64,000 bases of DNA from Odiellus spinosus. Taxonomy: Eukaryota > Arthropoda > Arachnida > Opiliones > Phalangiidae. Of the stretch, positions 6,021 through 56,711 are shown one piece after another (the stretch's first letter is position 1; the number at the start of each line of letters is the position of its first letter). A program made the translations under genes and the position numbers. The stretch covers positions 10,198,601-10,262,600 of the forward strand of contig OY987237.1 in assembly GCA_963920705.1 (NCBI GenBank), in the 5' to 3' direction. The notes beneath the pieces were generated by a model, which was not told the origin of the DNA, did no database searches, and saw only the letters and a list, made by a program, of their open reading frames with translations.

Positions 6021-6320
6021 AAAATAAAATAAAACACCCCTAAAAATAAATAAAACACCCCTAAAAATAAATAAAACACCCCTAAAAATAAATAAAACAC
6101 CCCTAAAAATAAATAAAACACCCCTTGAAAATAAATAAAACACCCCTTGAAAATAAATAAAACACCCCTTGAAAATAAATAAAACACCCCTTGAAAATAA
6201 ATAAAACACCCCTTGAAAATAAATAAAACACCCCTTGAAATTAAATAAAACACCCCTTGAAATTAAATAAAACACCCCTTGAAATTAAATAAAACACCCC
6301 TTGAAATTAAATAAAACGAC
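6021..6320. repeat. 21-22-bp derivatives of the 23-bp repeat
   Basis: Three short blocks with different units: taaaaataaataaaacaccc (21-bp type, about four copies), ttgaaaataaataaaacacc (22-bp type, about six) and ttgaaattaaataaaacacc (22-bp type, about four). Each block is internally uniform, which points to stepwise local amplification at the array edge. Confidence 0.93.
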
Positions 6321-6385
6321 CCGTGATAAAGGCTCTAAAATAAAACGCCCCTCAAACAGGCTTTGAAAATAAAACGCCCTTTTAA
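6321..6385. repeat. Left fragment of the 30-bp repeat
   Basis: Degenerate units of the pattern caggctttgaaaataaaacg followed by cccttttaaa. The last copy is interrupted after CGCCCTTTTAA by the 792-bp insert. It shares the AATAAAACGCCC core with the neighbouring 22-23-bp units. Confidence 0.85.
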
Positions 6386-7912: not shown

Positions 7913-7975
7913 TCAGGGCCTATGTCTATGAATATTAGCTTTATAAAACACAGAACGTTCAGTAGTAGGACAAGG
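7913..7975 (-). CDS. CARP terminal exon G: PCPTTERSVFYKAN to stop
   Basis: 63 nt: 20 codons and TGA, read in the phase 0 required by exon F, after acceptor tttttag. It encodes PCPTTERSVFYKANIHRHRP. The CP...YxxN pattern matches the CARP C-terminal tail after the CA fold (human CA10 ends DCPNNRAQKLQYRVNEW). It is too short to show as an open frame and was found by phase and motif. Similarity is short, so slightly less certain than the other exons. Confidence 0.85.
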   Translation of the reverse strand, partial: PCPTTERSVFYKANIHRHRP

Positions 7976-10666
7976 CTAAAAAGAAAAGAAAAAACACGAT
8001 AGTTTGAACAAGATTCAATAGGCCTTTTTATTATAAAATTATCTTGGAAACGGATATTGTCTATTGCACGCTCTGTTGTAAAATATCAAAGTTGAATTCG
8101 AATGTTAAAAAATAAAAACCCAGCTAGTATATTTTAAAGAAAAATGTGTTCTTTTCCATGGCACCTTATTTTCTCTGAACTACGTTTTCGGGGGAGTGCC
8201 GGGGTGGATGTTTAGGGGGTCAATAGGTTTTACCACTTCTGACTATCTTCCGAAAGCGTCGTTAGAACTTGCCTTTGCCTAGTTATTTTAATACGAATTT
8301 TTTTTAGTATCAATTATGCTTATTATTACTCTTCTTCTATCATAATATCATATTTAAATTTAATTATATTTTGTAAATAAATACGCAGCAAACGTTCTAC
8401 CTTGAGCCCGAGCCTGAGGTGAAATGTAGTAAAAAATTGATTTTTTGGAACCCGAGCTGAGCCCTGTTAATGTAAATTGAACCTGAGCTGAGACCTATCG
8501 TGAGATTTGCGTGAGCCCGAGGTGAGGTGAGCTGTAGTAAAATGATAGATTTCTTGGAGCGCGAGCTTGAGCTATCAATTAATAAAGCGATCACCTTGAG
8601 ACTGTGCGTTTAAATTGGAAGTGGCGAGCGCGAGATGAGGTCCAAGTAAAACGTGGTAAACTTTAAGCCAGAGTTGAGCTCGATACCAATTTAAAGTAAG
8701 ACGAGGTGAGCTGAGCCCGACCCTCGGCGCACAGGCTAACTATATTGTAGCAGCTCCTTGGACTCCTGTAGCTTTGGATCATTTAAGCTGTGTTCACACT
8801 ACAGACTTTGAAACCGTTTTAAACATTTTAGTAAAGGTCAAAGTGGAAAATTTTGGGGTCAACTGTAGAGATCTATTGTTCAAATATGTAATTATTAGCT
8901 TTAAAAATCGATTTGAACATCCAAAACGGTTAGAAAACAGTTCGAAAGTGTCTAGTGTGAACGTAGCTTACGTTATTTTGTCTCCAGCTCGCGTAAAAGC
9001 TTTCCGAAAAATGACAGTACTTTAAGTTATTAAAACTTACGGGATTTCTAGTCAGGGCGATGTTCGTTCGGACGGGCCTGTGATGCAAATGTAACGGGGG
9101 ACGGAAATTATCGGCTAAACTAGTTTTAGGGTTCGTCGGTTCACCTTGCATCAGTTTGCGCAGGCTGTAGAGCTGAAAATTATGAAAAAATAAAATTACT
9201 TTAAAAGCCATAATAATACGTTTGAAATTTTTAAGAGAAAGAAATAATAGTACAATTTGAAAATTCATTACTTTCTTCCTCGATAATTTTGGAGCAAATG
9301 ATATTTTAAAGGCCTCCACGAAATATATTACACTTACAAGGAGACTACCTGGATTTTCGTAATTGGCGTAGGAATTACGAAATATAAAATAAAATCTTAC
9401 TAAAAATCACGACATCACGAACAAAACAAAACCACGCAATTCCATAAATTAATATCAAAATTTGAAGACATCCGATTTTATTTAAAGTCACATAGACTTT
9501 CAATATACGCGCGACCCTTGGCCCATTCTCACATACAACATCCCTTTCAGCGCTTAAATTAGTCCCGAGTGAAACTCAATTAAAATTTACGAAAACCAAT
9601 ATAATGAACAAACCTGTTGTTTCGTAATATACAGGGGTTTATTTACAATAATCCACGTGACCGTTTCGTAACAGCCGGGCATGGTGGTCGACCCTTCGTA
9701 GGTAATGTAATGCGACGTGTCAGGTAGCAGGTCACGGATGCTAATCAGATTCACCTCAGATTGCATGCCTAAATAAATAATAAGCAAAATAATTAAAATT
9801 AACAAACTCATTAAATACTCAAGAACCAGTGAATCCAGCATTAGCCTCTGGTACCATCCTCGTATACTTTTTAGCCAAATTCGTTCGCTATTCGCTTTGG
9901 TGGCTCTCTAAATCTATGTAGATCGTACTCTTGCGTTTAATTTTTCTTCCGAGGCCAATTGACCAATTCGACGGTAGGAGAGGGGGTAGGCAACCATCTG
10001 TATCACACATGTAAAGGGAGTTGATACATCGCCGTCTCTGCGCGTGAGCTCATGCGCTGTGGCGGCGATGTATCAACCCCCTTACCTACCGTCGAAATGG
10101 TCGATTCACTAACCTAGACCAAAAGATTCGGATTTTACTGTACTATTTTTGTATTAAAATTTTCACGAATCTACATAGGTTTAGAATATTTTTGCTTCCA
10201 CGTTCGTAAGTACATAAATTAGTTCTGGCTATTATTTCATTATGGTCAAAAGTGTATAACTTTATTCCATAAAAGTAAACAACGCTCCTTAGGTTAATAC
10301 TATCAGCAAAGCTAAAGTTTTACGTCATACAACCCATCACTGAAAACTTGACTCTTTGAGTCAGGAGAGGGACGGAATTTAGGCGGGCCGCGCTTGTCTG
10401 TATTGTTTTCTCCCCCATCTCCGAAATTTCTCCAAAGAGTGGCGCTTCCGATTTTACTATTTACATCAACTGCGGCCGATTCAGAATCTATCGGTACATT
10501 TACCTGACCTTTTGCTGATAGTATTAAGCTGCGGGGCGTTGTTTTCTTTTAGGGATATACCTTTGTTAAGGTTGATATTAGTCGAATAATTTTTCCTACC
10601 TTTGTAGGTGATCTTTTCCAGGGAAGATGTTAGAATTTCCAGTTGAGGATTCGGTGTTTCACCCAG

Positions 10667-10704
<38 letters not shown>

Positions 10705-13700
10705 TTTTCAAATATTTTACTAGTTATCGCTTTGTCTGTATGCATTCAGCTTAAGTGGGTTCACATATAGGGGTGACGGAAAGGAACATGGAGAAAGAAC
10801 TACCCGAAATCTAATGAAATTGAATGCAAGATTGTGGTCACACTACCATTTCTTAATCGATTCTAAACTGTAAAATGAAACCAATATTCAAATCGCCAGG
10901 AATCGTTTTAAGCGTCACGTGTTCACGCATTATTGCAGCCCTTAAGCATGAACGAGGCTTTAGACGCTGGCTCGAAGAACGCTTTAGCGTATTACATTCA
11001 CGATAAAACGTTTTTCGTGCTTATGTAACATTCATCTAGCGCTTTTGCATTTCTTTCATGAGGATGAAAATAGCTTGATCAAAAAGCGACTTTCGCTATA
11101 GGACAAAGCTCACGATATTTTTAGAATAAAAAAATTCCAAATCAAAACAAAAATCTGTTCCAAAACCGAAGAAAAGGAAAAACATACCACCCCCACCCCA
11201 GAGACGGATAAGAAAATGCTCTGGTTTTCACAGAAATTTTCGAAAACAATTTTTTACTTTCATTCCATTTCTAAGATTGAAAATAATAAACCCTCTACTG
11301 CAAGCTACTTCAGTTCTTAAAAAAATGAGGATAGATCGTACGATTTTATTGTAACTATTGCAAGACTTCATGCTTTAGCAAATTCCCCGGAAAAAGAATA
11401 AGTCAAGAAAACGAAAATTGAGTCCCGTTGTTCTAAAATCATCCAGAAATTCATCTCACCTATATTTAAGTACCCCCATTTTTGGGAACTTTTTCAAAAG
11501 TAATAACACTGGTTTCAAAATTAAATTACAGGAAATTACCTGTAAAATTACTAGGTTTTATTACATTTTATCACAACTTTTAATTATTGTTTAAAATCCA
11601 ACTTAAGAGCTAATGCATATCCAAAGTTTACTCGTATGATGAGACACTAAACTACTAAATAATAAAGTTTACAGTAAATACGGGACTTCTTGGTCAACAC
11701 TGACACGCCACCCTGTAACAGGTTAGTCCTACTACAAATATAGGAAACTGCTTAATTGAGCCTCCTTTCAAGAATGCCGGATGTTAAAGTTTCTGGCTCA
11801 ACGACCCGTTGAGCTGGCTCAAAGATTTAACCACTATTGTAGAGTGAATGGACAGTGAATAGAACTACATTTAAAAACTAGTTTTGCGGAAAATAGTATG
11901 GCTTAAATTGAAGTCTGTCTAAAAACGAATTTATAGAGAAGTTTTCAACTTTCACAAAAGTCGATTCAGGAAACAAGCTACAAAGTTATTCTATTTAGCT
12001 TTTCAGGATCTATGATGTCTGTGGCTAGGCGTGTAATCTCCCTTAAAGTTGGACTCGAATAGGCTAAGTCTGAAGTTACGTAACTAACAATGGTAACGTG
12101 AAGGGATACGCAATGCTAACTCCATGGAGAAACAAAATGTAGTAAACATTTCTACAAAAAGTAGAGGGCGGATGTGAACGATGTTTGGGGGAGGGGGTAC
12201 AGAAGGAGTAAAGAAAAAATACAAAAGCGAGGCAATATCATGTAGTCAGGCAAGGCCAGGCCAAAGAGGGAGAAAGAGTGAGTCGAGCCTGAGGCGCCAA
12301 TTATCCAAGATTAGCTTCCGCGCTTTTCTGTTTTGGCGGGCATCTCCCAGAGACACAGTATAGAGAAGAAAGAGGAGAGCGAGAGAAAAGCGCAAGTCTG
12401 TTAGACTTATTTGGACTCCTAGAATTATAGTTGGGGGAAAGAAGAAATTCCGGTAGATGGGTGCTTACAAAATTCGCTTACTACGAGGTTTATACTCATT
12501 AGTTCAAAAAAGATGAACACAGACTTCTACGTAAAGAAGAGTGGATACGGGGAAGGGATGATAGGAAAAATGTTGGAGTTTAGGTTTGGCAAGCTCCGCA
12601 AATGGAGTCACTTCTTTTTCATCTTCTCCGGCTACGCTATATTGACCGCTTCCATCAAGAGAATAGGCCTGACCGCCAACCAGCAATGCGCCTTCCTAAC
12701 CCAATCCACCAAGACCTTTCTCTATTCAATCCAATTTCTAAGAAGGTTTTCCTTTTTCTGGCCTCTTTTTTTGGGCGTGCGAGTTCTCACACCGACGATA
12801 GGTGTTAGTTCCGAGTTTTATGATTCTAGATCTACTAAAGTACTGCTCAAGAGCAGTTGGCGAAACTATTTTTACCCTCCAATGACGATTAACATCAATG
12901 TTTGTTAGTAGAACAATTTCCGATAATTTTTAAGTTGTACTTGGACTTTACACGTAAGAAATAGCTCCTTAACTATTATTCGCTTCTTAACAAAAACTGC
13001 TAAATATTTAGAGTTCCTATATTAGCAGTATATTTCAACTTTGCTTTTAAATTTTTATAAACAGACATTTGAGACTCCAAATACCGGTTTCAGACTTGAA
13101 TTAATTTTAAATAATGTTATTTGGAATCAGCTATTTGGAGATTAAAAATTCATATTTATTAGTGATTTGTCGGATGTTAAATTCAAGGGGGACGTCACCC
13201 CCGAATTAGTTATACATATTGAGTTCAAACTCTCAGAGATCAGCTTTGGCAGTACAATAGTTGAAATATTTTGCACACCCGAGTTTCCAGGTCTCTACCC
13301 CAGCGGATAAATATGGCAAGGAATGGAAACAATTCAATGTTACAATTAAACACTGGCTTCTCAACCTAACCTATACAATTTAAAATCTTGTTGAAAAAAA
13401 GTTTGTAAACCAATACTTTCTTATTTTCTTTCTTCCCCAGTCTAGCCACTAAGGTTTTTGTGTTGTTTTCATCGTTGACACCGGAAACTATAAGAGTATT
13501 TTTCCCCCCTACCCTTTCTCAAACAACCAACGTTACACGCGAGACACGTACGTCTCAAACTGGACACTGACGGGTTCTAGCTAACCCAGTCTTCTTTCCC
13601 TCCAACTCTTCTTCCTGTTTAGTTATCTTGGACATTGGGAACGACGTTCAGACCTCTTAACGTCACCGTAATGACCAAAGAAATGAGCCGAGTTCGCATT

Positions 13701-16700
13701 TACACTGTAAACGAGACCCATTGTCACGATTTCTGTACATTCTAGCCAGTTTTTTTGTATAAAAAGCAGCCTATCAAAATTTCATATTAAACAATAGCTA
13801 AACCTCAATGAAACGATTGAAAGTTATTCCCGTCAAAAACAAATGGGAATGAAAATAACGATATTTATAATACTCGCTTATCGTGTTGTAGCGAGTGTTG
13901 TAAACACTGTATTTCTTCTTTGTTAGGTTAAATTTACGTATCAACCCGCCTGCAGTTCAACAAGGTCAATATATTAATAAATTATTATAATTATTATAAT
14001 TATTGTGTAAATCTCAATCCTAATTTATTTCCAAATTTAGATTCAATTTTTTTTATTTTTTTCCATAAGAGTTGCACCTTAAAATATTTTACCCATGAAC
14101 GAGAAATTGCTGTAGAACGAAAAAACTCAACGGGTTAGAAAAATATCCAGCAAAGACCCGATAAAGATCGCGACTCGAAATAAAATTTGCCAAAAACATG
14201 GCTAGGTACTCCATTAAAAAACGTTTTAGCTTCCCTCTGGCGTTCAGAAATGGTAATATTTAGGAGCTTTGAAAAACTTTTTTGTTGTTGTTTTCGTTAC
14301 CAAGGCGTATGTAAAGACGTGGTATTGCCCAGCCGCGAAAAAACTTTTGTTATTATTTCTAACCTTAAGAGAATAGCCGAAAGCTTCGAAAAACTTGCTC
14401 GTTCAAAGGAAACAAAAAAGGGACGAAAGATTACGAAGGTTTTATAAATAAGCCTTAATATATAATAACAACTATCAGGATTTTTTTTTTGGAAGAACAG
14501 AATAGCGATATGAATCGGGTAACCATTATGTCATTATCTTTGGATAAACATTTTTACGGATATTTCATTTTAGATAAATTGTTTGTAACTTTAAAAACGC
14601 GTTTTATACGCATAGATACAGAAACAATTTGAACGAATATAGTTAGGCCTTGTACGATGACATATATAAAACAGATATTCGAGGATTAAAAATCGAATTT
14701 TCCGGGTAAGTTTTAAATTTATTTCTAGTTTACTGTGTGTTTTGTAAACTTTTTATTGGTGGATTAGGCCTATTTAAACAATAAGGAATCGACGAAAAAT
14801 CACTTATTAGGTTGCATTCTTCCTTTAAATAAAACCTTCAGGGTGACCAATCTCCGTATATTTTAGAATTTTTCCTATAAATTTCCCTATATATTTTCTA
14901 AGCTAAGTTCTTCTAAGTTCCTTAAATTTTCATATTTTTCCTATAATTATTGTAATTTTCCAATATTTCTAAAAAACCCTATCATTTCCTATAAATCAAT
15001 AGAGTATGACTCAATAATTCTAGGTATACGACAAATCGGTAGCCTTTCAAATCTTTAAATTTCGGAGAGATGTACTGGAATCCCTTATTGGTATTGTGGC
15101 TGCTCTTCGAGAACTTAAATTTGATTCACAAGTGGGAGTGTGGACGCTCGTAATAAATATATATTTAAGAGCCCCAAATAATATCTATTTAACAGATTTA
15201 ACAAAAAGGGTATAGTAAATAAAACCCCAATTTAATTAGCAAATTAAATTCCTTCGTAACCCTCCAAGAATAAAAAAAATATATCTTTCCCTCATACCAC
15301 GAGCTTTAACTCTTGGGAAACGAACACGCCACAGGCTAGAATTAAAACCAGAGCGATTCCACCTTCACAACCTCCCACCAGCGCACATACATACACATTC
15401 TTTTTAACCACTCGAGACCTAATCCGCAGTATATTTAAACGACAGAATCGTGCCTAAACATGGAAATCCTGAAAAACCTATCTCCCTCTCTCTTTCCTCG
15501 ATAGAAAGAAGGTTGGAGGAAAGAACGTGTGGGATAGAAGAACTAAGATCACGCAAAAAAGTCAGTAGACGCGAAGAGAGGCGAATTCTGTCTCTATAGC
15601 AAATGTTGTTTCGTTTCATCTACTTTTATATAAATGAGGATTAACACTGCGTATTAATCCACCAGCTATTTTTGAGGGCTTAGTTAAAATTTTGAAAATG
15701 ATCAATTTCAAATTATCGAGAAACAGTTATATTGTTATTATGAATAATTTAAAGCTCAAATCTATAAAAATATATGGCTCTTCGTCTTCATTATCCATTT
15801 ATAGAAATGCTCTCACCGATTTTATACGCAATTCAAATGGAATTTGATTAAGTTTCAAAATGATCGTTATAAAATTATTTAAAATGCTATAAAAAATACG
15901 GAATTTTTAGAAATGAAAACAAACGTTCCACTTCATTACTAGGGTTAAATGTTATTATATAAAAATCAAATGTATCTCGTGTATCATCTGCCACGTGATC
16001 AACCCATCAACCCAGATGTATACAATATTGAATGTTTTAAATATAATGAAAAAAACTAAGAATATAATCAATAAGCCTTCCTAAAAATGTTATTTAAAGA
16101 ACAATTTTGTAATATCTCGCATTTAGACTTTAAAACGTAGACTGGATCTAAGCTTTTTCGTATAATGAAATCTCTGACAAAATCCAAATTCAACCGGGCG
16201 GAGTAAATTCGACCCCCTATCCCTTCCTCGGCAATTCGCTTAATTTATTCCGTTTGTGAAATCCTTTCTTCTCTTCTTTTTTCCCCACATTCACCCTGGG
16301 CTCGCGCATCGCTACCGAAACATTTTTTTTCCGGCGCGTTATTCTAAAACCGAGACCCAATTTCTATCCCAAGTCCACACACAACCCTTCTCTCTCGGTA
16401 CCCTCCCTCGTACCATCCTAAAACTCGTTCAAAAAGATCTCTTAGGCATAGCCTCTAGCCTAATTAAATTCCGAGCCTTCTCGGTAAACTAATCAGCTTG
16501 GAAAACCTTCCATTGCTAATTACCACTTCCTCGATCTTCACTAGATTCCCCCATTCTCACCCACTCGATCCTAGTTTCTAACAATGTATACACGGATCAG
16601 GTCGAAAACGATTTAATTGGAAATGATAAGGCGAATTGTTACGCAATAGTAAATTACGCGGCGAAAAAAGTAGATCAATACATTTTCAAACGTATTTTAC

Positions 16701-40700: not shown

Positions 40701-43700
40701 TTCTCGCGCGAAAAACCGACCTGATAAGACAAGAGGTGAAAGACCCATGAACTTTACTTATTAGAGTAACTCCATCCTCGTTCGTTAATTACAACAAAAA
40801 AGTTAGATGTCAGAAATTTGGATTGCTATTGCCAATTCCATCGACTAACTTACTAGACAATCTATCATGTTATTTTAAACACGATATATATTAACTTATG
40901 CACCAAATTATAAGGAGACTTATTTCTCAATTTTACATGTTTGTTTCGTTTCATAACGACGTAAATTTGGAACAAATAAAGAACCTATCGAAATTTTAAA
41001 GGGATGGATCTAGAGTGTAACATAGGTATGAATGGAAGGATGAAAACTGAAATGCAGTCTTTCTCTCGAATTAAAATTGTATTAATTATTGGTAGTGCGT
41101 ATAAACAGATCAAATTCGTAGAAATACTAATGACTTTAATCACTTTTCATTCAATCGTGGAGCTTAGATGAAAGCGAACCAATTAGTCATTTATAGCATA
41201 GAAAATGGGCTTAACACAACCATATGTATCGGACATGTAAATTGGAATCAATGATAAATTTGCGCAAAAGTAGATATAAAAACCCTATACCGCAAACGCG
41301 ATGAAGTAGGAGTTTGAGTTTTACCCCGTGTTTCCCTCTTAGTTTAGTGAATATGGTCAACATTTAATCTAATCACACTCCATATGGAGTTCGAAATCGA
41401 CACTCAGTCTAGTAAACCATTTAAGCACATTATTATCAACTATTTTATAACGAATTCTAGCTTCGGCAAAAATCACTCGAAACCATATAGTAAACCAAAA
41501 TGAAACAGACCTGAAGCAGCAGAGCAATTCCCACTAAGCCTTGAGTCTTCTCCAAAGATTCCTCCATGCTTTCGTACAGTTGGTTATTAAATCCATAGAT
41601 CTGAATCTGGTACAAGAGAAAAAAAAGTTAGTTTTTCCATAGTTTTACGGAACTACTTTGGAAACAAATAGCCTACTATATATTTCAAATCGAGGGGAGG
41701 AAAGTGGACTCGTACGGAAAGAGATTGTTAAAAAATTGTCCAATCTTCTTTGGAAAAGTTAAGAGCCCAAGAGCAGGAAAAAAATATAGAAATAAAAAAA
41801 AGGACAGTTCTGTAGGAGGTTTTTTCCCCGATAATCGAAAACATTTCGTCTCTTGTCCTTCTATTTTTTTTTTAAGTGTCATATATATATAAAACGAAAA
41901 AAGCTAGATAGAGAGAAGGGCCTGGGGTATAACCCTTTTGAAATTCTTGAAATGCCCCGTTCAGTCTCTCAGCGACTCTGCAAAGCGGTTTTCGATGGCT
42001 GCTATTTTCCCTGCACCCTCTTAGAACTTCTTATTCTCCCCTTTTTCTTTTGGCCTCAGAGGTGCCGTTACGAATACGCATAAAAACTCAAAATCGAGAA
42101 GCAGAAGGTGTAGAATTTTTGTCCACTTTACAAATATTAAAGTTTATTAATTGCTCATCCTATTCTAAAAAGTATGTATAATGGATTGTCCATTTACAAG
42201 ATTTTACTGCTTGGTCTTTGGCATGAAAAGACTATTATAGTGAAACAGCTGATCATATGATCAGACGTCATTCAAACCACATGGAACATAGTTTCCAATT
42301 AGTTAACTGTGCGTGTTCCCAAACCCACTCATCTTCGCGAGCGTTCTCGACACCTTTTCGATTACCTTATAGGCCTAAGCACGTGTTTGGCGTTCTAGTT
42401 TTAAGTCTACTACAGGTCACTATCAATGGCGCCACCAGGGTAGTGATTTTGGGGTCCACTCGTCAACTACTAGCGGCAGGAATGAAGGCTCCCCCACTAT
42501 AGTGACGTCGAGTAACTTGAACTAAGGGATATGTTAATCATGTTTTTGTTTTTTACACGCAGAAGAAACGCTGCAATAATTCAAAGTATAGGAGAAATTA
42601 GAGAACAAGGATCGAAAGGCCGGGATTTTTGGGTCCATGCATTTCGTGGCTTTTTACAAAAACTAAATGGAATTCGAAAAAATATTTCGAAAATATTTGA
42701 TCGAACTTGTCTCTTTTCTAACTAAGCCTAAATATCAAGACGTTTGAACCCTTTGGAATTTGTGAGGGCACCTTGGACTGCGCCTCTCTTCCCATCTTAT
42801 TTTCGCTTTCTAAATCTTCGCCAACCTTCTCCCAACACTCATCCCCTTCCAGATACACTTCAGTATAGAGAAGCAACGACAACGATATGAGATAAAATCT
42901 TCGGGAAGGAAAAAGGGATCCCCGAAAAGAAATTGTTGCTTCTTTCGAGAGAAAACGATAACTCTAATGGGAATCCGTCCACTGCAAAATGCACCTCATC
43001 TAAACAACCAAAGCCGAATGAAATCGAGGAAGGCTTTTCCAAAAGGTTGACGACAGGGTTTAGTTAGCTTGAATAAAATTGGGTTTATCTGACAGTGTGA
43101 ATGTTTGAGGTTAAGCCACGTAACATATATATATATATATATACGTAGTATCATCGTTATATCTTTTCAATAACAGTTTGCGCAAAAGCGATGCCCGTGG
43201 CGGATTAATACATAATGTAAAACCTCATAGGGACAAAATAAATTCGGAACTTGCGCTTTCAGTAAATTTTCCCTTATTCAATATGAAAAACTTTGCCATA
43301 TTTCTGTAAAAGAGAAGCTGACATAAATGGAAAGATAGAGAAATTAGCCTGTCCTATTTTTCTTCGCACAATTAAGAATGCATTATATTAGATACAATTA
43401 TTTTCACATTGATTTTGTTATTCTTTAAACGATGGGCTACAAGTAATTTTTAAGTTGGTTTCCATGAATAAATATGAACCATATGTTATGTCTGATTACT
43501 AAAATACAATGTAAACTTAATGAAAAAAGTTCTTACAACAGAAATGGCAGTTAATCTTTAAGAAAACTACCATGACCATTAAAAACTCTGCTATCGACTT
43601 TAGAGGTTTTCATTATATTTTAGACAATCCCCATAAGCTTTTCCGACTTTGCAAACTATTACTAAAGATAATTTAACATTTTGAAATATGATTACACAAT

Positions 43701-46700
43701 CATAAAATAATGCAAAAGTAATAAGCTTCAAGCGATAGCTGCCCAATCCAAACTCGGCCAAGTCAACTTCCGGAAATAAGTGTCATATATACCCCCATCC
43801 AGCAATAAAAAAAACCCAATATCACGCTTGTCTTTTCAAGCAACTCGCCCAAGCTCATCACGGACATGTATTTAATGTTGTAGATTAAAATGTGTGTATC
43901 TTAGCAGCGTACAGTCTGGCCATCACCAGTTAAGTTAGCAGTTTCCGTGGTGTTCTTGTTGCACAATATGCCGCTCTGATTGGTCTGATAAAAGGCCAAA
44001 GTCGTAAATTACAAAAAATATATAGATTTATATACCAGCCAAAAGTCAACCAGAGATTTCAGAGCTAAGCTCATTTATTTTTCTAAAAATACCTTCACTC
44101 CTAATCGTAAAATTATGTTCGAAGCTTGAACTTAGGGATAAAAAATAGAACATTAAACGATTAAAAAATAAGATGGGATACTACAATAATTTTTTGGTTC
44201 AGATTTTAGATTTGGGAATGCTTAAACTAGTTCTCTTAAAATGAAACTGCACCATAAAAACATCACATTTCAATAATGACCACGTTTCAAAACGTAGAAA
44301 AGCGTTTACAGCAATCTTTCGATATTAAAAGCTGATTTAAGGCCTCGTTTAGGGCAACCATCGAGTGGTTACACCACCTTCTAACATCTCCAAATAAGCC
44401 TAAGCTCGCAAGACACTAAGATCATTTCAATTCATACTCGCAAGATGTCAACTGAAAAACTAGTTTTTGACCTTGTGGTAAAAAAACTACTTATAAGGTC
44501 AATTAAATTTTATCTCGATCCTGTTCTTTGCGATACCAACTCAGAGTTAGGTGGTCTACCTTTTGTACTAGCTGAAATTTCAATTTGACTAGTTCTAGAA
44601 AAGCAGTGTGGTGGCAAATGGGGATACGCGAGCCCAGTCTAGTAGAAAGAAGCGCAAAGTACCGCTAAGGCGAAAAGCCAAATCCAAAGGGGGCGTAAAC
44701 ATAGACGAACCAAAGGGGTGGGGGTCGAACTGGCAAGCTTATCTTAAGCATAAAGGGTAGGGAGGAGGCGAGAGTCTCGGAAGACAACCTAAGAAGCGAT
44801 CGTTACGACCTCTAGGGAAAAAAGAACGAGCCCAAAAAAAGACAATACGAGCAATAAGAACCAGTTTGAAGTTTCAGTTTCTAAAAAGGTTGCTTTTTTA
44901 TATAGGGAGTTTAGTTTCTTAGAGATAGATGGCGGTTCTATATTCGCGCCTGTCACAAATTCTACTGTATACCATGCATGTTTCAAGCTTTTAAAGGTTT
45001 TATATGGGTTCTAGTAAAATCCCAAGATATTTATGGAGTTTATATACTACTTCTAAATCGGAGAGGTAAACCGCCTCCTTAGAACTTGGGTCCCTCTGGA
45101 AGACTTTTAAGTTCCTAAGAATAAATAAGTTTGTCTGTCGGGATGTAAAAATTAAAATAATATCATTGCATTTTGTAAATGGTATGAAGACAAGTTTGTA
45201 ATATTGTAGCTTTTAATGAACTTTTAAACTACTGCTTAATATAAATGGGGGAAATCTGAACTTGACAGGTTTATCCAAGGGTCTACATATCTGTTTTAAA
45301 GTCTATAGCGACAATCGATGAAACTATTAGAGCTCTTTTCAGAGAAATAACGTTAATAGCTAATGGGGCGTTTATAAAACAATTATCTCGATATGTTTTT
45401 GTTTTTGTGATTTATAATTAATGAGTTTTAGAATGTTAACAAGTTCCATTCAAAATTTCTAAATTAATGTTTTCAATTATTTGGCTGACCACTAAATTTC
45501 AATGGGGTTTGTCATACCGCCAATTTCTTCAACTTTTTCATAATATTATTAAATAAATTTACGAGGCTGCATGGTTATGAATAACAGTTAAATGTACGGT
45601 TATGTAGAGCTTTCGTGGTAGTGACGAAAAACAAGTTTTTGCGTAACTAAAAAAAAATTCGTAAAAAATCAGCAAAAGATTAACTACTCGGAAGGCTCAG
45701 AAACGTTTGCTCTTGAAAGAATACCCTGTTTTGACGGCGCGAATAAAAGTTTAATTTGAGACTCGAATTAGGCCTAAAGCTCTTCAGCCTTTAGACAGGT
45801 AAATACCCGAAGCACCGAATAAACTCGTACACAGCGATATAAACCAAAAGAACAATGAGGAGTATTTACTGCTCGAGAAACTCTCGACAAGAATAGATTG
45901 GGGTGTTCGACAGTAATAGGCTTTACTTCCTCCCCTAAAGCCAAATCTTACACGGAACAATACACCAACATTTCCCGCATTGCCCCACTTTTCTGGTTAA
46001 TTGCGAAAGATTGGTTTCAATTACCTCGGCGGGAAAGGCGAATCCAGCTATCGTGTGTTCGGAGCCACGTTCGTCGCTGCGTCCATAATGAAGGTGAATC
46101 TCGTGAAATTGGTAACGATAGGATAAAGGACCACCCGAGACGTTGGCCGGGGGACCGTTTTGCTGGCTCACTCGGAAGACGACGCTATGTCCCGTATTTT
46201 CGATCATGCCACCAACCTATTAATAAAAAAAATACAACTGTTTAATTACAATCAAAATTTATAAATAGAAGATACGCGTACTTTCTTAATGGTTAATTAT
46301 TTTTGAAATTTAAATCTGAATAAAGAAAGTTAAGCTAAATTATATTAATTACACGTATTTTCTTAATGGTTAACTATTTTTAAAATTTAAATCTGAATAA
46401 TGAAGGTTAAGCTAAATTATATTCTACTAACGAGTGGCAACTGTGGTGTAGATAACGCGATTGGTTAAAAATGATAAAATGTGTTACCGAAAAAAAAAAC
46501 AAGTGATAATTAGAGTTTTAACCCCCTTTTTCCAAATTAGAAATAGATCTTAAAGTTTAAAAAACTGTGTAAGTTCAATTAATTCTAATTAAATACATTA
46601 TAATTACGATTTCAAAATTATTTTAAATGCTTCTTCGGTTCTCAAATATTTCTAATGAAAATGAATGAAGACTAAAATTTTAGTAAAGAAAACGTTCTTG

Positions 46701-49700: not shown

Positions 49701-52700
49701 GGACAACTTTAATCAGCTCCTTGGAAAAAAAAAAAATCAAAATTTATTTGTGCCGGCTATAGGGCTCTAAACCAAGGAGCCGATGAAAGTTGGCCGTGGG
49801 AGAAGGTAGCAGTCGCGTCTCTGGCGAGTGACTCCACCATGTGGAATAAAATGAAACTTGGTCGATAAATCGCGAACACTAACCTAATATTCAACCATTT
49901 TTAAAGTTTGACACGATATTTAGATCAGGAAAAAGTAGCTTTTAGTGCTGAAGTAGAAAAAAGGATTAGATGAAAAAGGGACTCGGTATCAGGCCTGTCT
50001 TTAAGTTTAATAACCTTCCCAGCAAGCCACTTATTACTTCTGTATCGTAATTATTGCGGTCTCAACCTGTGTCTTTGGTAATTAGTCCTCAAGTCCCCTA
50101 ATTTATGTATAATTCTCCTCGATTCCTTGAGGCATCGCTAGTGGCACGTGACGTCAGCCGGCTAGTTAATTAGCTACTGAACTACTCTGGTCAATTAGAC
50201 TAGTTGACAGCACGTGTAAAACTATCCAAATTATTTTAATTATTTGTTACCTTAGATACTAAGCGAACAAAGGTTGGAGTGTTCTGCCATTTCGAGATAT
50301 GGAAATGACTTTATGATCAAATAACAACTGAACCTTTTTCCCTAGGCGACAAAAGTATTATTTTTGGATTTGAAAATTACCATTAACGCTAGAGTTGAAT
50401 GGTCTAGACGTTTTTCTCAAGACTCAACGATTCCCCGCATCGTTTAGCCGAGAATAAAAGAGGAGTATTAAAAAATTTGAGATTGAATAGCCTCCTAAAA
50501 ATAAAAAACCTTGAACTTAAAAAAAAAAATAATAATAAAAACCGTTTTCTTTTTAATTTAAACAACTATCTTTCGTAGAAGAAAAGCGACCGTAAAAAAC
50601 ATTTTAAGATAAAAAACGTTTGAAGGGCTAACAAGGCATAAAGACTAAATCATTAGGGAGTATAACTACGTTGTTTTCTGCCTTCTTAATGATTCTCTGA
50701 GGAGAAGCTTAAAAAAATAAAAAAAATAACACGCAGCAAATATATTGGTCATTACGGAAACTAAAGAAGCTAGATTATCCCTCTTGGCCCCGGAATAAAA
50801 AAAGGAAGGAAGAAAATGCAACTTAACGACAGAACCAAAGAATCGGATATATTGACTTTTAAGACGACCTAAACAAGTAGGCGCATTTAAAACGAAACCT
50901 GACAACTTAAGGACAATGTTCAAATTTTGTCTTGTTCGGCTCGCGTCCCTAAGTGGGAAAATAATGCCGAATTGAGGGGAGAATACATTTTTTTTATCGA
51001 TTCCTTATCGTTTAAATAGGCATAATCCACCAGTAAACTAATTAACAAATAAATATTAAACTAGAAATAAATTTAAAATTTACCATCAAAATAGGCTTAG
51101 CTAGATTCATGGAGATATAAGGAATAGCGGTCGTGGAGATCCTGCATTCCCCATATACGAGCCATCGTTCAATTTCCTTATATGAGGAGTTCTGGTAATC
51201 TCCATGAATCCAGCTAAGAATATTTTCCTGGTAAGTTTTAAAATTTATTTCTAGTTTAATGTTGGTTTTTAATTTTTTTTTACTTGTGGATTAGGCCTAT
51301 TTAAACGATAAGGAATTGATAATCTCTTGTTTTTAGGTTGCATTCTCCCTTTAACGAATTTTTGAAGTTGAATACCACAATTAAATTCTTATAGAGAACA
51401 GTCGGTTAGTAAAAACACAAATCGAAAACATTCACTTCAAGATTAGTAAAGATATAGGTTAAGGAGAGACTGCCAAAGCCACGTGACTGTTTTTTAATTT
51501 GAGCGGGATTTCCAGACCGGATCCATTTTAATTTCTAGTCACAACTGAATAGATGTCAGACACACTCAATACCGCAAAACAATGGTGACAGTCATTAAGC
51601 TGACTGATAAAATTTATCACTATCACTTTCATTAAACTTCCCAAGATATTTCATGTTAATTTCTTTTCGAGGGAAAAAAATGGCGAACATATTGAAGGAA
51701 AACCATATATAATTCTTCCTCTAACTGTCTCTATACAAAATAAAAGTGTTGTTTTAGTTCCACTATCCTTTTAAAATGTATAGAAAATTTTAAATAATCA
51801 CATTTACACAATTTGACGATGACGAGTTTTGAAGTTTGCTACTTTCTAGAAACTAACGTACCCCAATTAGTAGGTTAAATACATCAAAGCTCGCTAAGAC
51901 TATAATTTGGGAAGAGGATATATTCCATTTCAGAACGCGAGTTCTTGTTTTTAATAGGCCCAGATTCCCAAAGCAGTAAACATTCGCGAATTACCCATCT
52001 GATATACATTTTGCAGATTCTCCTACATATAATTTGACTATAATTTATAACGATATATAACATCAATCGGCCAATTTTCCAGAAGTTCCGTATCTCTTCG
52101 TCAAGATTTACTCATTGGAAATTAAGTACGAATTTGCATATAAGATTGCTAATTACGCCCGCGAAGGTTATACGGCAAATTGTTAAGTTTAAACTTTGGA
52201 AAAGATTTTGAAACTTTGAAATTAAACTTGTTAGTATATATGAGCGGAAAACAACCCTTTCAATTAACTAAAGTATGTATAAATTACAAAAAAAAAACTT
52301 TTTAATTGAGCAGTTAAAATTAACATAATAAAACCCCGTTTTCAATCAACGTTTTTCAAGCTTTTGCTTTAGCATATTCAAATTTCATTTAGATATCGAC
52401 TTCTGTTAACTTGATTTTAAGCCTCATCTTTGATGTTAGGCAAGAGCTCGATTCTTGATCAAATCAATATTGATTGAAAACGCGCCATATACAAATGGAA
52501 AAGTATAGAGTATCACTTTTGGAAAGATTGTTAAAATATATTTATATCTATGTCATAGAAAATAAATATTTTATAATCGCCTTCATAATTTTTTAAAACA
52601 ATATTTGAGACTATGGTCACGTGGTTATGATTTTCCCGCGTTCTGGCACGTGATGGGGTCGCTTTCACGCAGTCTTTTTCGTGAAAGAACTTAATTCATA

Positions 52701-55700
52701 GAGTCCTTTTTTACATTGAGAGTCAAAAATATAACTTTATATATTTTTGTTATTTAAATATTGATTTTTCTTAAAAACGTGCCAGCCCGGAGGTGTATTT
52801 TGAATATGAGTTTTTAATGCTACGTAAAAAAATGTAGACAGCCTCAAGGGTTTAAAGGAAGCGACTTTAAGAAAAAACGTATTTTTCGCTTAAAAATCTT
52901 CAAGTAGGTTAGTTCACTATAAAAAATTCATTTATATTATAAAAGTTCAATGTAAATTTGAAATTTACGTTTTGAAAAAATTTCAGATAATTTTGTAATC
53001 ACAGCCTCTGTTTAATAAACAGTTCATTGGCAGTTTCGTTAATTTAATAATATTATAAATAAGTCTTACTTTTACAAGTTATTCTTTAAAGGGAGAATGC
53101 AACCTAGAGTTCTTATAGTTTAAAAAGTCCTAATCCAACAGTAAAAAAATTTCAAACAATTATTGCACTCGAAATAAATTTAAAACTTACCACCAAAATT
53201 GGCTTAGCTACATTCATGGACATATCCTTAAACTCTCCGTATAAGGACCAGCGACGAATGACATTGATCATGGAGATCCCGTATTGCCTTTATTAGAGCC
53301 ATCAATCAATATCATTGGTCGCTATCCTTATATGGGGAGTTCGGATGACCTCCATGAATCCAGCTAAGCCTACTTTCCGGTTAAGTTTTAAATTTATTTC
53401 TAGTTTAATTTTTTTTACTGGTGGATTAGGCCAACGCCATCATTCATAGAGATCAATATCCCTGGTGGCAAGCAAAATATCCATCTTTATGGACCACAGA
53501 AAATTTGGATAGATTATACTCCATTTAATAACGAAATAGTAATTTTTTAGAATATAGAGGTTTAAAAAGCATCTTTAGTCTCATATATTGATTTCGAAAA
53601 TAAAATGCGGGTTTGCCCTAATGCCCTTAAGTATACCAAAGGAAAAGTAGTACTTTTATTTCAAATTCCGAATTTATAAATTCGATATATATAGACTGAC
53701 ATCGACTTGAATATCATAAAACCCAACCCTCACTTATAGATAAAAAACGGGACATCTAAAGAAAAGGGATCTGCTAGAGAAACTGCACATACGAATTTCA
53801 AAAACGTTAAAAACGAGGAAAAGGGGTTACAAAAATCCCAAAAGACGTAGGTAATGATGGTGTATGGAAAAAAGAGAGAGAGATAGTGAACGGGGAGAGA
53901 TGGGGATACCTTCTGTCCCCCCAATTTCACCCTCCTCTTCTTCCGATTCGAAGATTTCTCGTCATCATAGAGCAATCCCCCATTTCCCTTATGGTTTATT
54001 CGACGTAATCGAACCAACGTTTTCAAAGCTATAGATGGCGGGGATTTCTATACGAGAACATACCATGATTTTATGTTTCCTCCTTTACACGACTTTATTA
54101 ATTCAAATAAATCGAATAGATTACACTTCTCCACCTACTTTTCCTACCAAATTTTGTTACCGATCATTAGACATAAGAGAAAAAAAAGACAAGTAAAAGA
54201 GAAAGAGAGGGCCAAAGATCCTTAATGTTTTGGGAAGAAGGAAGGTCGAGGTGGGGTTAAAAAAAGATTTGGGTAGCGAATGCCAAAAGTCTTTCCTGGA
54301 TTATATTGCTAATCGATTTCGGTTAGAAATAAAATTCCTTTTTATTTTATTTTTTTCTTGTTTCCTTCTTCGTTTCCTAACCGGAGAATTTTGGAGGGTA
54401 TTAAAGCAAATACCTTATTGATTATAGGTTCGTCCGTCCCCCTCGTTAACTATTCCTTAACTTTTAGGTTTTTCTTTTCGCTATTTCATTCATATATCAT
54501 TAAATTCTGTTCTCAACATATGTTTTTTTCTGTATCTTTCTTTAGATAACCGGGTTCAAACGTCTTAACTTTTAATGTTTTTTTCTTCTTATCGTTTAAG
54601 TTCCGCTTATACATATCAGTTGGGGTTTGTTGTATCTCCCGGATACATTACATTTAACGACTACAACTAGAACCATCAAAATCTGATCGAGGTTTCAAAC
54701 TATACTAATCCAGATTATACGCTACATGCTTTATAGAGCTATAAGGGTAGTGTATCTTCAAACGCGTTGAAACATATGATTGTGTATAGATTTCCAATAA
54801 CCTCATTGATTCGGGTTTTTAAAATTTGGTTACATAGTACCTTATTAAATACTTTATAAATATGGATCAATTTTTTTTCTCTTCCAAGAGTTTCAGAAAT
54901 ATTGAAGAATTAAGTCATGGTTTAAAGGAGTTTATATTGGACTTTTCCAGTTTAAACTGTTACCGTAGATATTTAGATTATTTCCATGCAACCTGACTCG
55001 ATATGTGAAATTTCCTTTCGCGCCAAACTTCGCGAACTCTTCTTATCCAATGAAGAAAATCTTTTATTTTGGTTGGAATTTTCCAATAGTTGGTATTATA
55101 AAAGAACTTGTGGGTGCGATATCTAGTTCGAGTGTTGCTAACTACGTCACGAAGTCACGTGGCGTTAATGTTATACAGCGCAGTTATTTACGCTTTCATA
55201 AAACGCTAGGGGTCAGACGGCTTAGAAGTCACTCAGGAGATACCCAAAACGGAAAAAATAAGCTTTAGGAATGCTCGGTGCTCACGAGCGATATGAGATT
55301 TACAAGCTATTACGTAGCTGATGACGTCGACGGCAGCAATTCCTAAGCTCCTCCTCTTTTATGATAGCAACTACTTGCACCATTTTTCACCAAACTAGAT
55401 TTTATCTCATTGCGAAACATAACATGGGGGCGCATTGAAATGATAAGTAAAATCGACGTCACGTGTATTTCTCAGGAGTTCGTATAGAAATATTTTTTAT
55501 TATTATTATATTCGAAAAAATAAAAATGGAAATTTAATTATTAAATTTATAAATCTCGATCTGAATTTCGTTCACAACCAGACATATTTCTTCGTAATAT
55601 TTCCTTTAGGTTTAAGAAACGATTACGAGGGGGCCAAACCCTTTTGAAACTCAAAACAGATAAAGTCCGACTTGATCTAGAATAGGAAGCGGTGCGAGAG

Positions 55701-56711
55701 ACTCCCAAGATTATTTTTCTCTGGATTTATTGAGCTTGGAATTTCTCTTCTAAGAAATAACTCCCTTTTCTATACATATGTAATAAGGGTTGGAAACCGG
55801 CCGGAAGTGGGCCAACTGTATTCGATTATTGGTATTTCATTCTAAGCATATTTTTCCCAGAGCGGTACAAACTTTATACAGTTCATACAGACGGACTTAG
55901 CCTCAAAAAATACGGACTTAAGCCTATTATATTGGTTTCTTTTCCATTTTCTTATTCATATTTTTTTTTTCTCTTTACGAACTTAAGAGGTTAGTTGCGT
56001 CAATTTAACGAATTAGATTTATACCTAATGGCCTTTTATTGAAATGACAAATTTATTCTTAGTTATAAAATAATAAACTCTTGAATAAGCTTATTTTAAA
56101 TAAATGGAGTTTGATTTCTAATTAAAGAAAAATGAAGACGGGTAATAATTTAATTTTTGGTAAACCTTTCTTTTAGTGATCGATACCAGCCCCTTTGGAT
56201 CGGTAGAATCGAAATTACACTATGTGGTTCTTTTACTAAGTATATATTTTCAATGTATTTCCTAAGCCTTAGTAGGAAAAAACAAACACTTATACGACAT
56301 CAATTGTAACACGTTTTTCAGAATTTTGTACTCATTATGACCGGTGGTTAATTTTTACAAAGAATAGAACTAACCCTTTAGAAGAGTAAGTATATAGATC
56401 TAAAAAAACTGGCTTTACTTTACATACATTTTAAACGCGATTCCCCCCTTTCAGTATTTCTTTCCTCCGCTTTTTAAGAACATAAGCTTGTATGAAGTTG
56501 ATCTAAAATTCATTTCACATTTGCGTAAAAAGGCTTAGCGCCCAAAACGAATAAAATAAAAAAAAAAAACTCACTTTTTCTTTATTGACGTGGAAAGCTT
56601 CGAGTTTGGGATCGTAGAGCAGATATTCGGGTTTGATATCGACGGGGGATTGTCTCCGCCCTTTGTTGCAAAGGCTCCATTCAGGGTTTAACAAGCCCCA
56701 GAAATCAGGAC
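7913..56711 (-). CDS. Carbonic-anhydrase-related protein, CA10/CA11 (CARP-B-like) family; 5'-partial, 7 exons
   Basis: Coding exons, in transcript order, are 56711-56575, 46216-46025, 41606-41511, 10666-10600, 9768-9614, 9172-9041 and 7975-7913. They sum to 842 nt and about 280 residues including the codon split at the first acceptor, with GT/AG borders and matching phases throughout. Seen motifs: FWGLLNPEW, LCNKGRRQSPV, IENTGHS, NVSGGPLSYRY, EIHLHYG, RGSEHT, LLPDTSHYITYEGSTT, GCYETVTWIIVNKP, DNFRPP, HRPVRTNI. Together these cover the alpha-carbonic-anhydrase fold of the CARP branch. In CA2 numbering His64, His94, His96 and Thr199 are kept, but His119 is Gln (AE-IQ junction), so CO2 hydration is not expected. 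Two cysteines (LCNK, GCYE) fit the disulfide of secreted CAs, and NVS is a glycosylation sequon. In vertebrates CA10/CA11 are secreted neuronal neurexin ligands; the same role here is inference. The N-terminal signal-peptide exon is missing from the window. Closest by memory to Drosophila CARP-B; the exact orthologue is not tested. Confidence 0.95.
8784..8970. mobile_element. Short inverted-repeat element (MITE), GTTCACACTA type
   Basis: The ends are TAAGCTGTGTTCACACTA and the inverse TAGTGTGAACGTAGCTTA, with further matching inside (GACTTTGAAACCGTTTT against AAAACAGTTCGAAAGTGTC). The size of about 187 bp without coding potential fits a MITE of a cut-and-paste DNA transposon. It lies in the CARP intron between exons F and G. 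A diverged relative lies at 62321-62480. Confidence 0.75.
9041..9172 (-). CDS. CARP exon F: LYSLRKLMQG to LTRNP
   Basis: 132 nt, 44 codons, phase 0 at both ends, with acceptor ataattttcag and consensus donor gtaagt. It encodes LYSLRKLMQG, then SLADNFRPPLHLHHRPVRTN and IALTRNP. DNFRP and RTNI are conserved C-terminal CA motifs (human CA10: DNFRPVQPLNNRCIRTNI). Translation past the donor is meaningless, so the exon ends at 9041 rather than running on as the open frame does. Confidence 0.96.
9614..9768 (-). CDS. CARP exon E: MQSEVNL to YITKQQ
   Basis: 155 nt: two bases finishing a Gly codon, then 51 codons, ending in phase 0. The acceptor is attatttag and the donor gtttgt. It encodes ISIRDLLPDTSHYITYEGST and GCYETVTWIIVNKPLYITKQ. 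STT contains the equivalent of Thr199, and the Cys in GCYE is the expected partner of the exon A cysteine. This is the most strongly conserved part of the CARP family and fixes the gene's identity. Confidence 0.97.
9959..10104. mobile_element. Foldback element in CARP intron D-E
   Basis: Outer arms TTGACCAATTCGACGGTAG and CTACCGTCGAAATGGTCGA. Inner arms AGTTGATACATCGCCG and CGGCGATGTATCAAC around a short loop. The whole 146 bp could fold into one long hairpin. GC content is above its surroundings. No coding content; likely a MITE. Confidence 0.75.
10277..10545. mobile_element. Inverted-repeat element 55 bp from CARP exon D
   Basis: The left end AAACAACGCTCC...TTAATACTATCAGCAAA and the right end TTTGCTGATAGTATTAA...GGGGCGTTGTTTT are inverted copies of about 34 bp. 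The 269-bp element has no coding content. With the foldback at 9959-10104 it fills about half of the 831-bp intron D-E. Confidence 0.72.
10600..10666 (-). CDS. CARP micro-exon D: LGETPNPQLE to ITYK
   Basis: 67 nt: 22 codons plus one base of a Gly codon completed by exon E. It encodes LGETPNPQLEILTSS then LEKITYK-G, the expected link between the LLLQ strand and the loop before LLPDT (Drosophila CARP-B from memory: LGDLSNAEL...IRYGG). The length and end phase are exactly those required by exons C and E. The donor is gtagga. The acceptor's pyrimidine tract is an uninterrupted run of 34 T on the minus strand (10669-10702), followed directly by AG at 10668-10667. Confidence 0.93.
10669..10702. repeat. 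Poly(A) run of 34, the poly(T) tract of the exon D acceptor
   Basis: 34 consecutive A on the plus strand. Read on the gene's minus strand it is an unbroken T34 ending in AG, the pyrimidine tract of the 67-nt exon D. Slippage here could vary the splice site between individuals. Confidence 0.95.
10703..14694. other. CARP intron C-D, distal part
   Basis: Non-coding AT-rich sequence. Apart from a tRNA-like relic at 13242-13303 I see no gene or strong repeat. A GC-richer purine patch at 12180-12420 and open frames near 12500-12900 on both strands have no recognisable domain. Confidence 0.5.
13242..13303 (+). repeat. tRNA-like SINE relic
   Basis: AGCTTTGGCAGTACAA resembles a diverged A box, and CCCGAGTTTCCAGGTCTCT resembles a B box of the CCGGGTTCGAATCTC type. 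It shares this arrangement and the phrase ACACCCGAGTT with 18881-18932. Short and decayed; tail and target duplications are not defined. Confidence 0.35.
14695..14828. mobile_element. TTAA palindromic MITE family, right half only
   Basis: Starts near TTTTCCGGGTAAG and includes TTTAAATTTATTTCTAGTTT and GGATTAGGCCTATTTAAAC. It ends TAGGTTGCATTCTTCC then TTTAA. The left arm is absent. It matches the right arm of the fuller copies at 34843-35217 and 50972-51354. Confidence 0.82.
18881..18932 (+). repeat. tRNA-like SINE relic
   Basis: AGCTTTGGTAGCGCAAAGAG followed 10 bp later by CCCGAGTTCTCAAGTGTCTG, with spacing and words like those of Pol III A and B boxes. Related to 13242-13303. No full tRNA cloverleaf can be drawn, so it is not a functional tRNA gene. 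Confidence 0.38.
19938..20010. mobile_element. Remnant of the TTAA MITE family (right arm)
   Basis: GGGACATTAGGTTTATTTAA, AGGTAATGAATCGATAATAG and TTGTTGTCGGGTTG correspond in order to the right arm of the family (GGATTAGGCCTATTTAAACG, ATAAGGAATCGAT, TTGTTAGGTTG). It is strongly decayed and lacks both ends. Confidence 0.5.
24297..24519. mobile_element. TTAA palindromic MITE family, short copy with both ends
   Basis: Left end TTAA-AGGGAGAATGTAACC and right end CTTGCATTCTCCCT-TTAA, both with TTAA. At 223 bp it is shorter than the roughly 375-bp copies, because most of the left arm is missing while the CCACATGAATCCAGC centre and the right arm remain. The intact ends make it a good reference for the termini. 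Confidence 0.88.
24520..33308. other. CARP intron C-D, continued
   Basis: No gene, RNA or clear repeat recognised. A GC-richer part at about 28930-29640 carries a minus-strand open frame of 84 codons with no recognisable domain. Confidence 0.5.
33309..33731. mobile_element. Inverted-repeat element, CTAAAGC(C/T)TCGTTCATAC ends
   Basis: The left end CTAAAGCCTCGTTCATAC and right end GTATGAACGAAGCTTTAG are inverted copies with one difference. Inside, GAGAAATCAGTTCGT on the left mirrors ACTGACTTCTC on the right, so the arms are longer but diverged. 423 bp, no transposase; a MITE-like relic in CARP intron C-D. Confidence 0.75.
34843..35217. mobile_element. TTAA palindromic MITE family, complete copy
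   Basis: TTAA-ATGGAGAATGCAACC at the left and GGTTGCATTCTCCAT-TTAA at the right. The arms are complementary over about 130 bp each (CGATTCTTAATAGTTCAAAT against ATTTAAATAAGGAATCGAT). The centre has a second inverted pair, CATGGAGATCCTGA and TCAGGATCTCCATG. 375 bp, no coding sequence. It is the best copy for defining the family. Confidence 0.92.
36065..36200. mobile_element. Small foldback element, GTTTGGACAAGAT ends
   Basis: GTTTGGACAAGATTATCC at the left and GCATATCTTGTCCAAAC at the right form an inverted pair around about 100 bp of AT-rich sequence. 136 bp, no coding content; MITE-like. Confidence 0.7.
36509..36565 (+). repeat. tRNA-like relic (Ser/Leu-like A box)
   Basis: AACCGAGTGGTTAGGAGG resembles the A box region of type II tRNAs (GGCCGAGTGGTTAAGG). 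GGTCCCGGGTAAAAAC at a short distance resembles a damaged B box. It probably derives from a tRNA-headed SINE; it cannot fold as a working tRNA. Confidence 0.35.
38771..38930. repeat. Degenerate minisatellite, about 5 units of 28-34 bp
   Basis: Units share GAGC...GATAGAGCTT...GGTTCAAGAA: for example GAGCATTGAGATAGAGCTTT, then GAGCACCGACATAGAGCTTA, then GAGCATAAATAGAATAGGGT. The copies are considerably diverged, so the array is old. Confidence 0.75.
39761..39798. repeat. 38-bp near-perfect palindrome
   Basis: Centred on CCATATGG with arms ATAACCTTTTTGGAACCAT and ATGGCTCCAAAAAAGTTAT, two mismatched pairs and no loop. This is why open frames on both strands here share the same residues. Function unknown. 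Confidence 0.85.
41511..41606 (-). CDS. CARP exon C: IQIYGFN to LLLQ
   Basis: 96 nt, 32 codons, phase 0 at both ends. The acceptor is cttgtaccag and the donor gtctgt (weak at +3). It encodes IQIYGFNNQLYESMEE and TQGLVGIALLLQ. The Gln at codon 2 occupies the place of zinc ligand His119, and Gly replaces His122, as in other CARPs (human CA10 has VQLIHYN). This is the residue that makes the protein a predicted pseudoenzyme. It lies 4.4 kb downstream of exon B and 30.8 kb upstream of exon D. Confidence 0.95.
41607..46024. other. CARP intron B-C
   Basis: 4,418 bp between donor gtaatt of exon B and the acceptor of exon C. Includes a (TA)n run at 43124-43143. The open frames at 41685-42725 are short and without recognisable domains. 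No other structure seen. Confidence 0.55.
43124..43143. repeat. (AT)n microsatellite
   Basis: About ten AT dinucleotides in the CARP intron B-C. Confidence 0.9.
46025..46216 (-). CDS. CARP exon B: zinc-site strand with HLHYG
   Basis: 192 nt, 64 codons, phase 0 at both ends, with acceptor attaatag and donor gtaatt. It begins VGGMIENTGHS, where the His aligns with CA2 His64. It continues through NVSGGPLSYRY and EIHLHYGRSDERGSEHT and ends FPAE. HLH supplies the equivalents of zinc ligands His94 and His96; vertebrate CA10 has Arg at the first of these. NVS is a likely N-glycosylation sequon, matching NIS in human CA10. The plus-strand open frame over this exon is a shadow. Confidence 0.96.
46274..46424. 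repeat. 77-bp tandem duplication next to CARP exon B
   Basis: Two head-to-tail copies, each beginning like ACGCGTACTTTCTTAATGGT or ACACGTATTTTCTTAATGGT and ending AAGCTAAATTATATT. They differ at a handful of positions. The duplication lies about 60 bp upstream, in gene orientation, of the exon B acceptor, where branch points and splicing regulators sit. Confidence 0.88.
46425..47585. other. CARP intron A-B, part between the tandem duplication and the LINE
   Basis: AT-rich, with a poly(A) run near 47056-47069 and a G-rich run near 47468-47480. No coding or repeat structure beyond these was recognised. Confidence 0.5.
47586..48445 (+). mobile_element. Decayed LINE (non-LTR retrotransposon), 3' part of ORF2 reverse transcriptase
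   Basis: One frame reads NRVNIIKCYSIITGQFY, then CTGVPQGLALCPLLFTIYVN and DL. This is the GVPQGS-LGPLLFxIYINDL block of Jockey/CR1-like reverse transcriptases. A frame change follows, in which FAHDSEL stands for the catalytic (F/Y)ADD box. After it come IYNIKKWSIENKIPTNCEK, VKLVKHLGIIID (the K-LGI-ID motif), KHAVVRYI and FYIASNLWSRLGE, typical of the region behind the RT domain. Several frame changes and stops show it is dead. The 5' part, endonuclease domain and tail are not seen. It sits in CARP intron A-B, opposite to the gene. Confidence 0.85.
48446..50971. other. CARP intron A-B, continued
   Basis: No repeat or RNA recognised. A minus-strand open frame of 114 codons at 48888-49232 (contains PARYGGYNFSNVVNTTWNAP) reads protein-like, but it belongs to no family I recognise and shows no CARP homology. 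Confidence 0.45.
50972..51354. mobile_element. TTAA palindromic MITE family, near-complete copy
   Basis: The left end is TTGA-GGGGAGAATACATT (diverged) and the right end TTTTAGGTTGCATTCTCCCT-TTAA. The arms carry TATCGATTCCTTATCGTTTA and the inverse TTTAAACGATAAGGAATTGA. The central pair GAGATATAAGGAAT and ATTTCCTTATAT continues the hairpin. 383 bp, no coding sequence. Confidence 0.9.
51355..53085. other. CARP intron A-B, continued
   Basis: AT-rich non-coding sequence between two MITE copies; nothing further recognised. Confidence 0.5.
53086..53432. mobile_element. TTAA palindromic MITE family, copy cut at the right
   Basis: TTAA-AGGGAGAATGCAACC at the left, followed by the left arm, an enlarged centre with CATGGA / GACCTCCATGAATCCAGC, and the right arm up to GTGGATTAGGCCA. 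The last 70 bp or so, including the right terminus, are missing. The central spacer differs from other copies. Confidence 0.88.
53433..56574. other. CARP intron A-B, 5' part
   Basis: Non-coding, with T-rich and purine-rich patches at 53870-54560. Open frames here (for example 98 codons minus at 53730-54026) lack domains. No repeat recognised. Confidence 0.5.
56575..56711 (-). CDS. CARP exon A (first recognised): FWGL to NKEK
   Basis: 137 nt. It begins with two bases completing a split codon (probably Gly), then 45 codons. The acceptor is tttcttttag and the donor gtgagt. It encodes PDFWGLLNPEW and LCNKGRRQSPV, the N-terminal landmark of CA domains (human CA10 has SFWGLVNSAW and CSVGKRQSPV). 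The cysteine in LCNKG should pair with that in exon E. The exon ends in phase 0 after NKEK. The preceding exon, expected to end in something like TYDGIS plus one base of Gly, was not found. Confidence 0.95.

Follow-up and report, generated by a model that had tools for sequence, protein, structure and literature searches.

Vertebrate CA10 and CA11 (CARP X and XI) are secreted neurexin ligands that have in common with the gene described here a CA domain in which a zinc ligand has been lost. CARPs are reported to be acatalytic (PMC2873310, PMC4539348). According to PMC9032886, two of the three zinc histidines are lost in vertebrate CARP X and all three in its sister, which is printed as CARP IX and is by context CARP XI; His64 is retained in CARPs too, as stated in PMC6609565. 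In mammals, neurexin is bound by CA10 within the secretory pathway. The Cys in the CA10 tail forms a bond with the first Cys of the neurexin Cys-loop, and CA10 binding blocks the addition of heparan sulfate to neurexin (PMC8024894). In PMC4539348, all 61 CARP-X-like proteins have three conserved cysteines, which are residues 60, 244, and 310 in human CARP X; the third belongs to a C-terminal tail that only this class has. Two N-glycosylation motifs (N116 and N168) are likewise present in 61 of 61 proteins, including CARP-A and CARP-B of Drosophila. The same paper names a ninth exon for CA10 genes and reports two CA10-like genes in insect genomes.

The window, which is the whole stretch of 64,000 nucleotides analysed here, corresponds to C15:10198601-10262600. 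The genome that contains it measures 443 Mb, is assembled into 286 contigs, and was the one covered by the whole-genome searches. The window harbors a minus-strand gene in which seven exons, lettered A to G and all read on the minus strand, join into 280 codons with a sole stop (TGA) at the end. Exon A (56575..56711, 137 nt; PDFWGLLNPEWSLCNKG...) opens with two bases of a split Gly codon, carries the first conserved Cys, and is recognized from the joined frame and Pfam PF00194. Exon B (46025..46216, 192 nt), the longest of the seven with 64 codons, contains the equivalents of His64, His94, and His96 together with the N-glycosylation motif NVSG. Exon C (41511..41606, 96 nt) has Gln at the His119 position and lacks the second CARP-X glycosylation motif. 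Exon D (10600..10666, 67 nt) is preceded by an intron of 30,844 nt and is equal in length to its counterpart in a paralogue, P4. It shares a Gly codon, split as G|GC, with exon E (9614..9768, 155 nt), in which the Thr199 equivalent and the second conserved Cys are found (PGCYETVTW). The CA domain ends in exon F (9041..9172, 132 nt), and the last coding exon, exon G (7913..7975, 63 nt including the TGA), encodes a C-terminal tail with a single Cys. The residue positions His64, His94, His96, Glu106, His119, and Thr199 are taken to follow CA II numbering. From A to G, the introns measure 10,358, 4,418, 30,844, 831, 441, and 1,065 nt, and all six are bounded by GT and AG. The initial annotation had placed seven minus-strand exons at these positions, with 67 nt for exon D, 63 nt for exon G, no exon above 64 codons, and a Gly codon split between D and E; all are found as it described them.

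The joined exons cover positions 3-253 of the 254-position PF00194 model (E 1.6e-70), which agrees with the initial proposal that a phase-consistent join yields a complete CA domain. PF00194 was also matched by exons E and B when the whole genome was searched with Pfam (E 7.5e-13 and 9.9e-13). At the level of sequence, independent support for the seven exons is provided by the Pfam match of the join, the whole-genome Pfam search, and the paralogues. When the exon peptides were compared with the window in an ungapped frame scan, they scored 110-346 at their true place, at most 35 at the other places listed on either strand, and at most 27 in a reversed-window control; the queries are the exons' own translations, and the scan therefore speaks for uniqueness only. 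Each exon peptide had one strong place, and no alternative or duplicated exons were seen in the window.

The CA domain is complete within the window and the gene is incomplete there. The view that the whole coding gene consists of seven exons in 48.8 kb gives way to one of at least eight coding exons in at least 84.7 kb, with a coding span of at least 84,707 nt. The additional exon, exon Z (48 nt, VLCSWEEWWTYDGISG), lies at window-equivalent positions 92572-92619 (C15:10291172-10291219), 28.6 kb past the window end, and is separated from exon A by an intron of 35,860 nt. Its borders are AG and GT, and it is in phase 1 on both sides. It was detected by a loose W[WST]xY search of the coding strand that covered 200 kb upstream plus the end of the window. 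One of the 15 matches, SWEEWWTYDGISG, resembles a CARP exon and has a phase-1 donor after it. In our reading, a WWTY exon with a phase-1 acceptor precedes exon A in all four CARP-X-like loci examined here. The guide targets printed for exons 2 and 3 of zebrafish ca10a presumably translate to the stretches covered by exons Z and A. Exon Z holds an extra Cys (VLC) upstream of the three hallmark cysteines, in the presumed signal region. As the acceptor of exon Z is in phase 1, the start codon and signal peptide are expected on yet another exon. The coding exons thus number at least eight and probably nine, and nine would match the ninth CA10 exon named in PMC4539348. A start or signal-peptide exon, sought in the fetched upstream stretch as an ATG followed by a hydrophobic core and a phase-1 GTRAG donor, was not found there; the single candidate on the coding strand was dropped, given that the same rule yields three on the other strand and two in the reversed sequence.

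Searching the whole genome with the joined protein produced 28 matches among the best 44 candidates scored. These comprise the seven window exons (one each), 12 exon matches in three CARP-like loci, and nine weaker matches on C1, C3, C5, C7, C12, and C16, a grouping that is our own. Over the exons read in both genes, identity to the window gene is 140/252 for P2 (C15:10.56-10.63 Mb, minus strand), 148/237 for P3 (C15:11.10-11.21 Mb, plus strand), and 117/215 for P4 (C2:33.39-33.42 Mb, plus strand). CARP-X-like loci in the genome number at least four, of which three lie within a ∼1-Mb stretch of C15 (10.20-11.21 Mb). As far as they were read, exon order and phases are alike in the three paralogues. 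In four of four loci, exon A comprises 45 whole codons, the acceptor phase ahead of exon E is common to all three other loci, and the lengths of exons B and C differ from those of the window gene by at most two codons. The suggestion that the length of exon D and the split Gly codon back the splice model is borne out in P4, the one paralogue in which exon D was read and where both the 67 nt and the full split Gly occur. The sequence read lacks exon D in P2, exons D and G in P3, and exons F and G in P4. The first residue of exon E, from the split codon, was entered as Gly in all three, with exon D as its basis in P4 only. A tree of the four paralogues and carbonic anhydrase 13, in which X stood in for exon D in P2 and P3, P3 lacked G, and P4 lacked F and G, gave bootstrap values of 55 and 58, too low to group the four genes.

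The class assignment draws on the cysteines. In the joined exons, counted from SWEEWW, Cys is present at 27, 209, and 274, with a spacing of 182 and 65; the published spacing is 184 and 66 when derived from 60/244/310, although PMC4539348 elsewhere prints 223 for the second residue. A single Cys lies in the tail that follows the CA domain, like that of the neurexin-bonding tail described for CA10 (PMC8024894). With vertebrate CA10 and CA11, the gene has in common three cysteines near the published spacing, the first N-glycosylation motif (NVSG at 83), and the one-Cys tail, and it differs from them, as they are described, in the absence of the second motif, where SMEE stands at +52 from the first. 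The second motif is present at exactly +52 in P2 and P4 and absent in P3. Two N-glycosylation motifs are a conserved trait and are not counted as class-defining. Judged by its sequence, the window gene is CARP-X-like (CA10/CA11-like), in line with the class named in the initial annotation: it combines a CA domain, a lost His119 ligand, three cysteines near CARP-X spacing, and a tail Cys. The match to Drosophila CARP-A (CG1402) and CARP-B (CG32698) is one of class and by description alone (PMC4539348). Both glycosylation motifs are reported there for the fly proteins, whereas the window protein keeps one; the gene is for this reason not filed as CARP-B, and that assignment is weakened. Knowledge of the family is unchanged by the window gene, and the result carries little surprise.

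In an alignment to carbonic anhydrase 13, the reference used for His119, Gln replaces His119, and His64, His94, His96, Glu106, and Thr199 are retained. Gln occupies the same position in P2, P3, and P4 (four of four loci in all), and P3 also has Arg in place of His96. A pattern search of ordinary carbonic anhydrases of the same genome recovered His94 and His96 in five of eight loci and no exon with position 119, so that carbonic anhydrase 13 is the sole control for His119. Two or three zinc histidines are lost in vertebrate CARP X and XI, in contrast with the window gene, which keeps two of the three (PMC9032886). With His94 and His96 retained, one can be less sure that zinc binding is lost than in vertebrate CARP X.

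These residues would allow the product to be a zinc-binding, weakly active secreted carbonic anhydrase, in which His94, His96, and the carboxamide of Gln119 hold the zinc, and His64 and Thr199 are catalytic. Human CA II with Gln at 119 retains some activity; here too one of the three ligands is changed, and changed to Gln, and the other named positions are retained relative to carbonic anhydrase 13. We nevertheless consider an active enzyme unlikely. Gln in all four loci and the Arg at 96 in P3 fit relaxed catalysis, no report of H119Q is found among the literature matches listed, and CARPs are reported as acatalytic (PMC2873310, PMC4539348). His64 is retained in CARPs as well (PMC6609565), and its presence here is therefore no sign of activity. 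A related proposal, which we regard as decidedly improbable, is that the CA10-like class has grown to at least four genes in this lineage, with the window gene and P3 forming a subclass that has lost the second glycosylation site, and that the window gene product may bind zinc and may be a partly active, neurexin-linked carbonic anhydrase; partial activity is conceivable in view of the retained His64, His94, His96, and Thr199 together with the Gln at 119. Decay as a pseudogene after duplication of a CARP-X gene in this lineage, toward which the presence of four or more CARP-X-like loci, the large introns, and the satellite DNA that lies 1.6 kb past the stop codon might point, is barely plausible against the lack of an internal stop across the 280 codons and exon Z, the GT-AG introns between the known exons, and the retained hallmark cysteines.

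The window gene is very likely a CARP-X-like animal gene, probably from an arthropod, that encodes a probably secreted and probably non-enzymatic CA fold and most likely acts in the manner of vertebrate CA10. Its product would be a secreted protein with an alpha-carbonic-anhydrase fold that, having lost the zinc ligand His119 (to Gln), is probably no enzyme. It would acquire a single internal disulfide as it folds in the secretory pathway, the Cys of the C-terminal tail would bond with the Cys-loop of the neurexin stalk, and neurexin would thereby be tuned at synapses; expression is presumably neural. This CA10-like mode is proposed on the basis of the conserved cysteines. The genome contains a candidate partner: a neurexin-like C-terminus on the minus strand at C12:12188634-12188756 displays an acidic Cys-loop, ICDDEEDC, followed by SGSG. 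The match of this gene to PF01034 is weak (E 4e-6), and its frame ends in EWYV, a C-terminal ending from which we presume it to be neurexin-like. The tail Cys of the window protein and the Cys-loop in the genome provide the anatomy from which we infer the role of a neurexin ligand. In comparison with mammals, as described in PMC8024894, the C12 stalk has DNRIC before the loop and neither the Leu-Val pair nor the Ser at the mammalian places. Because the Leu-Val pair and Ser are absent, the contact between the CARP and neurexin may differ, and the effect on heparan sulfate known from mammals may not apply here.

Two points are worth keeping from the comparison with described systems: the mildly damaged zinc site and the number of loci, at least four in this genome against the two CA10-like genes reported for insect genomes in PMC4539348. 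A set of at least four CA10-like genes with differing zinc and glycosylation sites could be used to separate what neurexin binding needs from catalytic leftovers. The gene model also represents a fair test of annotation, as it combines small exons (48, 67, and 63 nt) with long introns (30.8 and 35.9 kb).

The remainder of the window and genome yielded further observations. Three other open reading frames in the window have no Pfam match at E 1, and tRNA and Rfam scans of the window found nothing. Positions 1-4997 of the window consist of 156 copies of a 32-bp unit; genome-wide, exact copies of this unit number 7246 + 3609. As 32 is no multiple of 3, the array gives rise to long overlapping false open reading frames, in minus-strand frames. 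In the adjoining positions 4996-6322, a 23-bp unit is repeated 58 times with 99% matches, and this array ends 1.6 kb behind the CARP stop codon. Many exon matches to PF00194 cluster at C16:15.66-15.69 Mb, where ordinary carbonic anhydrases are probably arrayed in tandem. Arrays of TTAGG, a motif that points to an arthropod and to nothing narrower, account for 7014 + 2583 exact matches in the genome, and those of TCAGG for 85 + 58.
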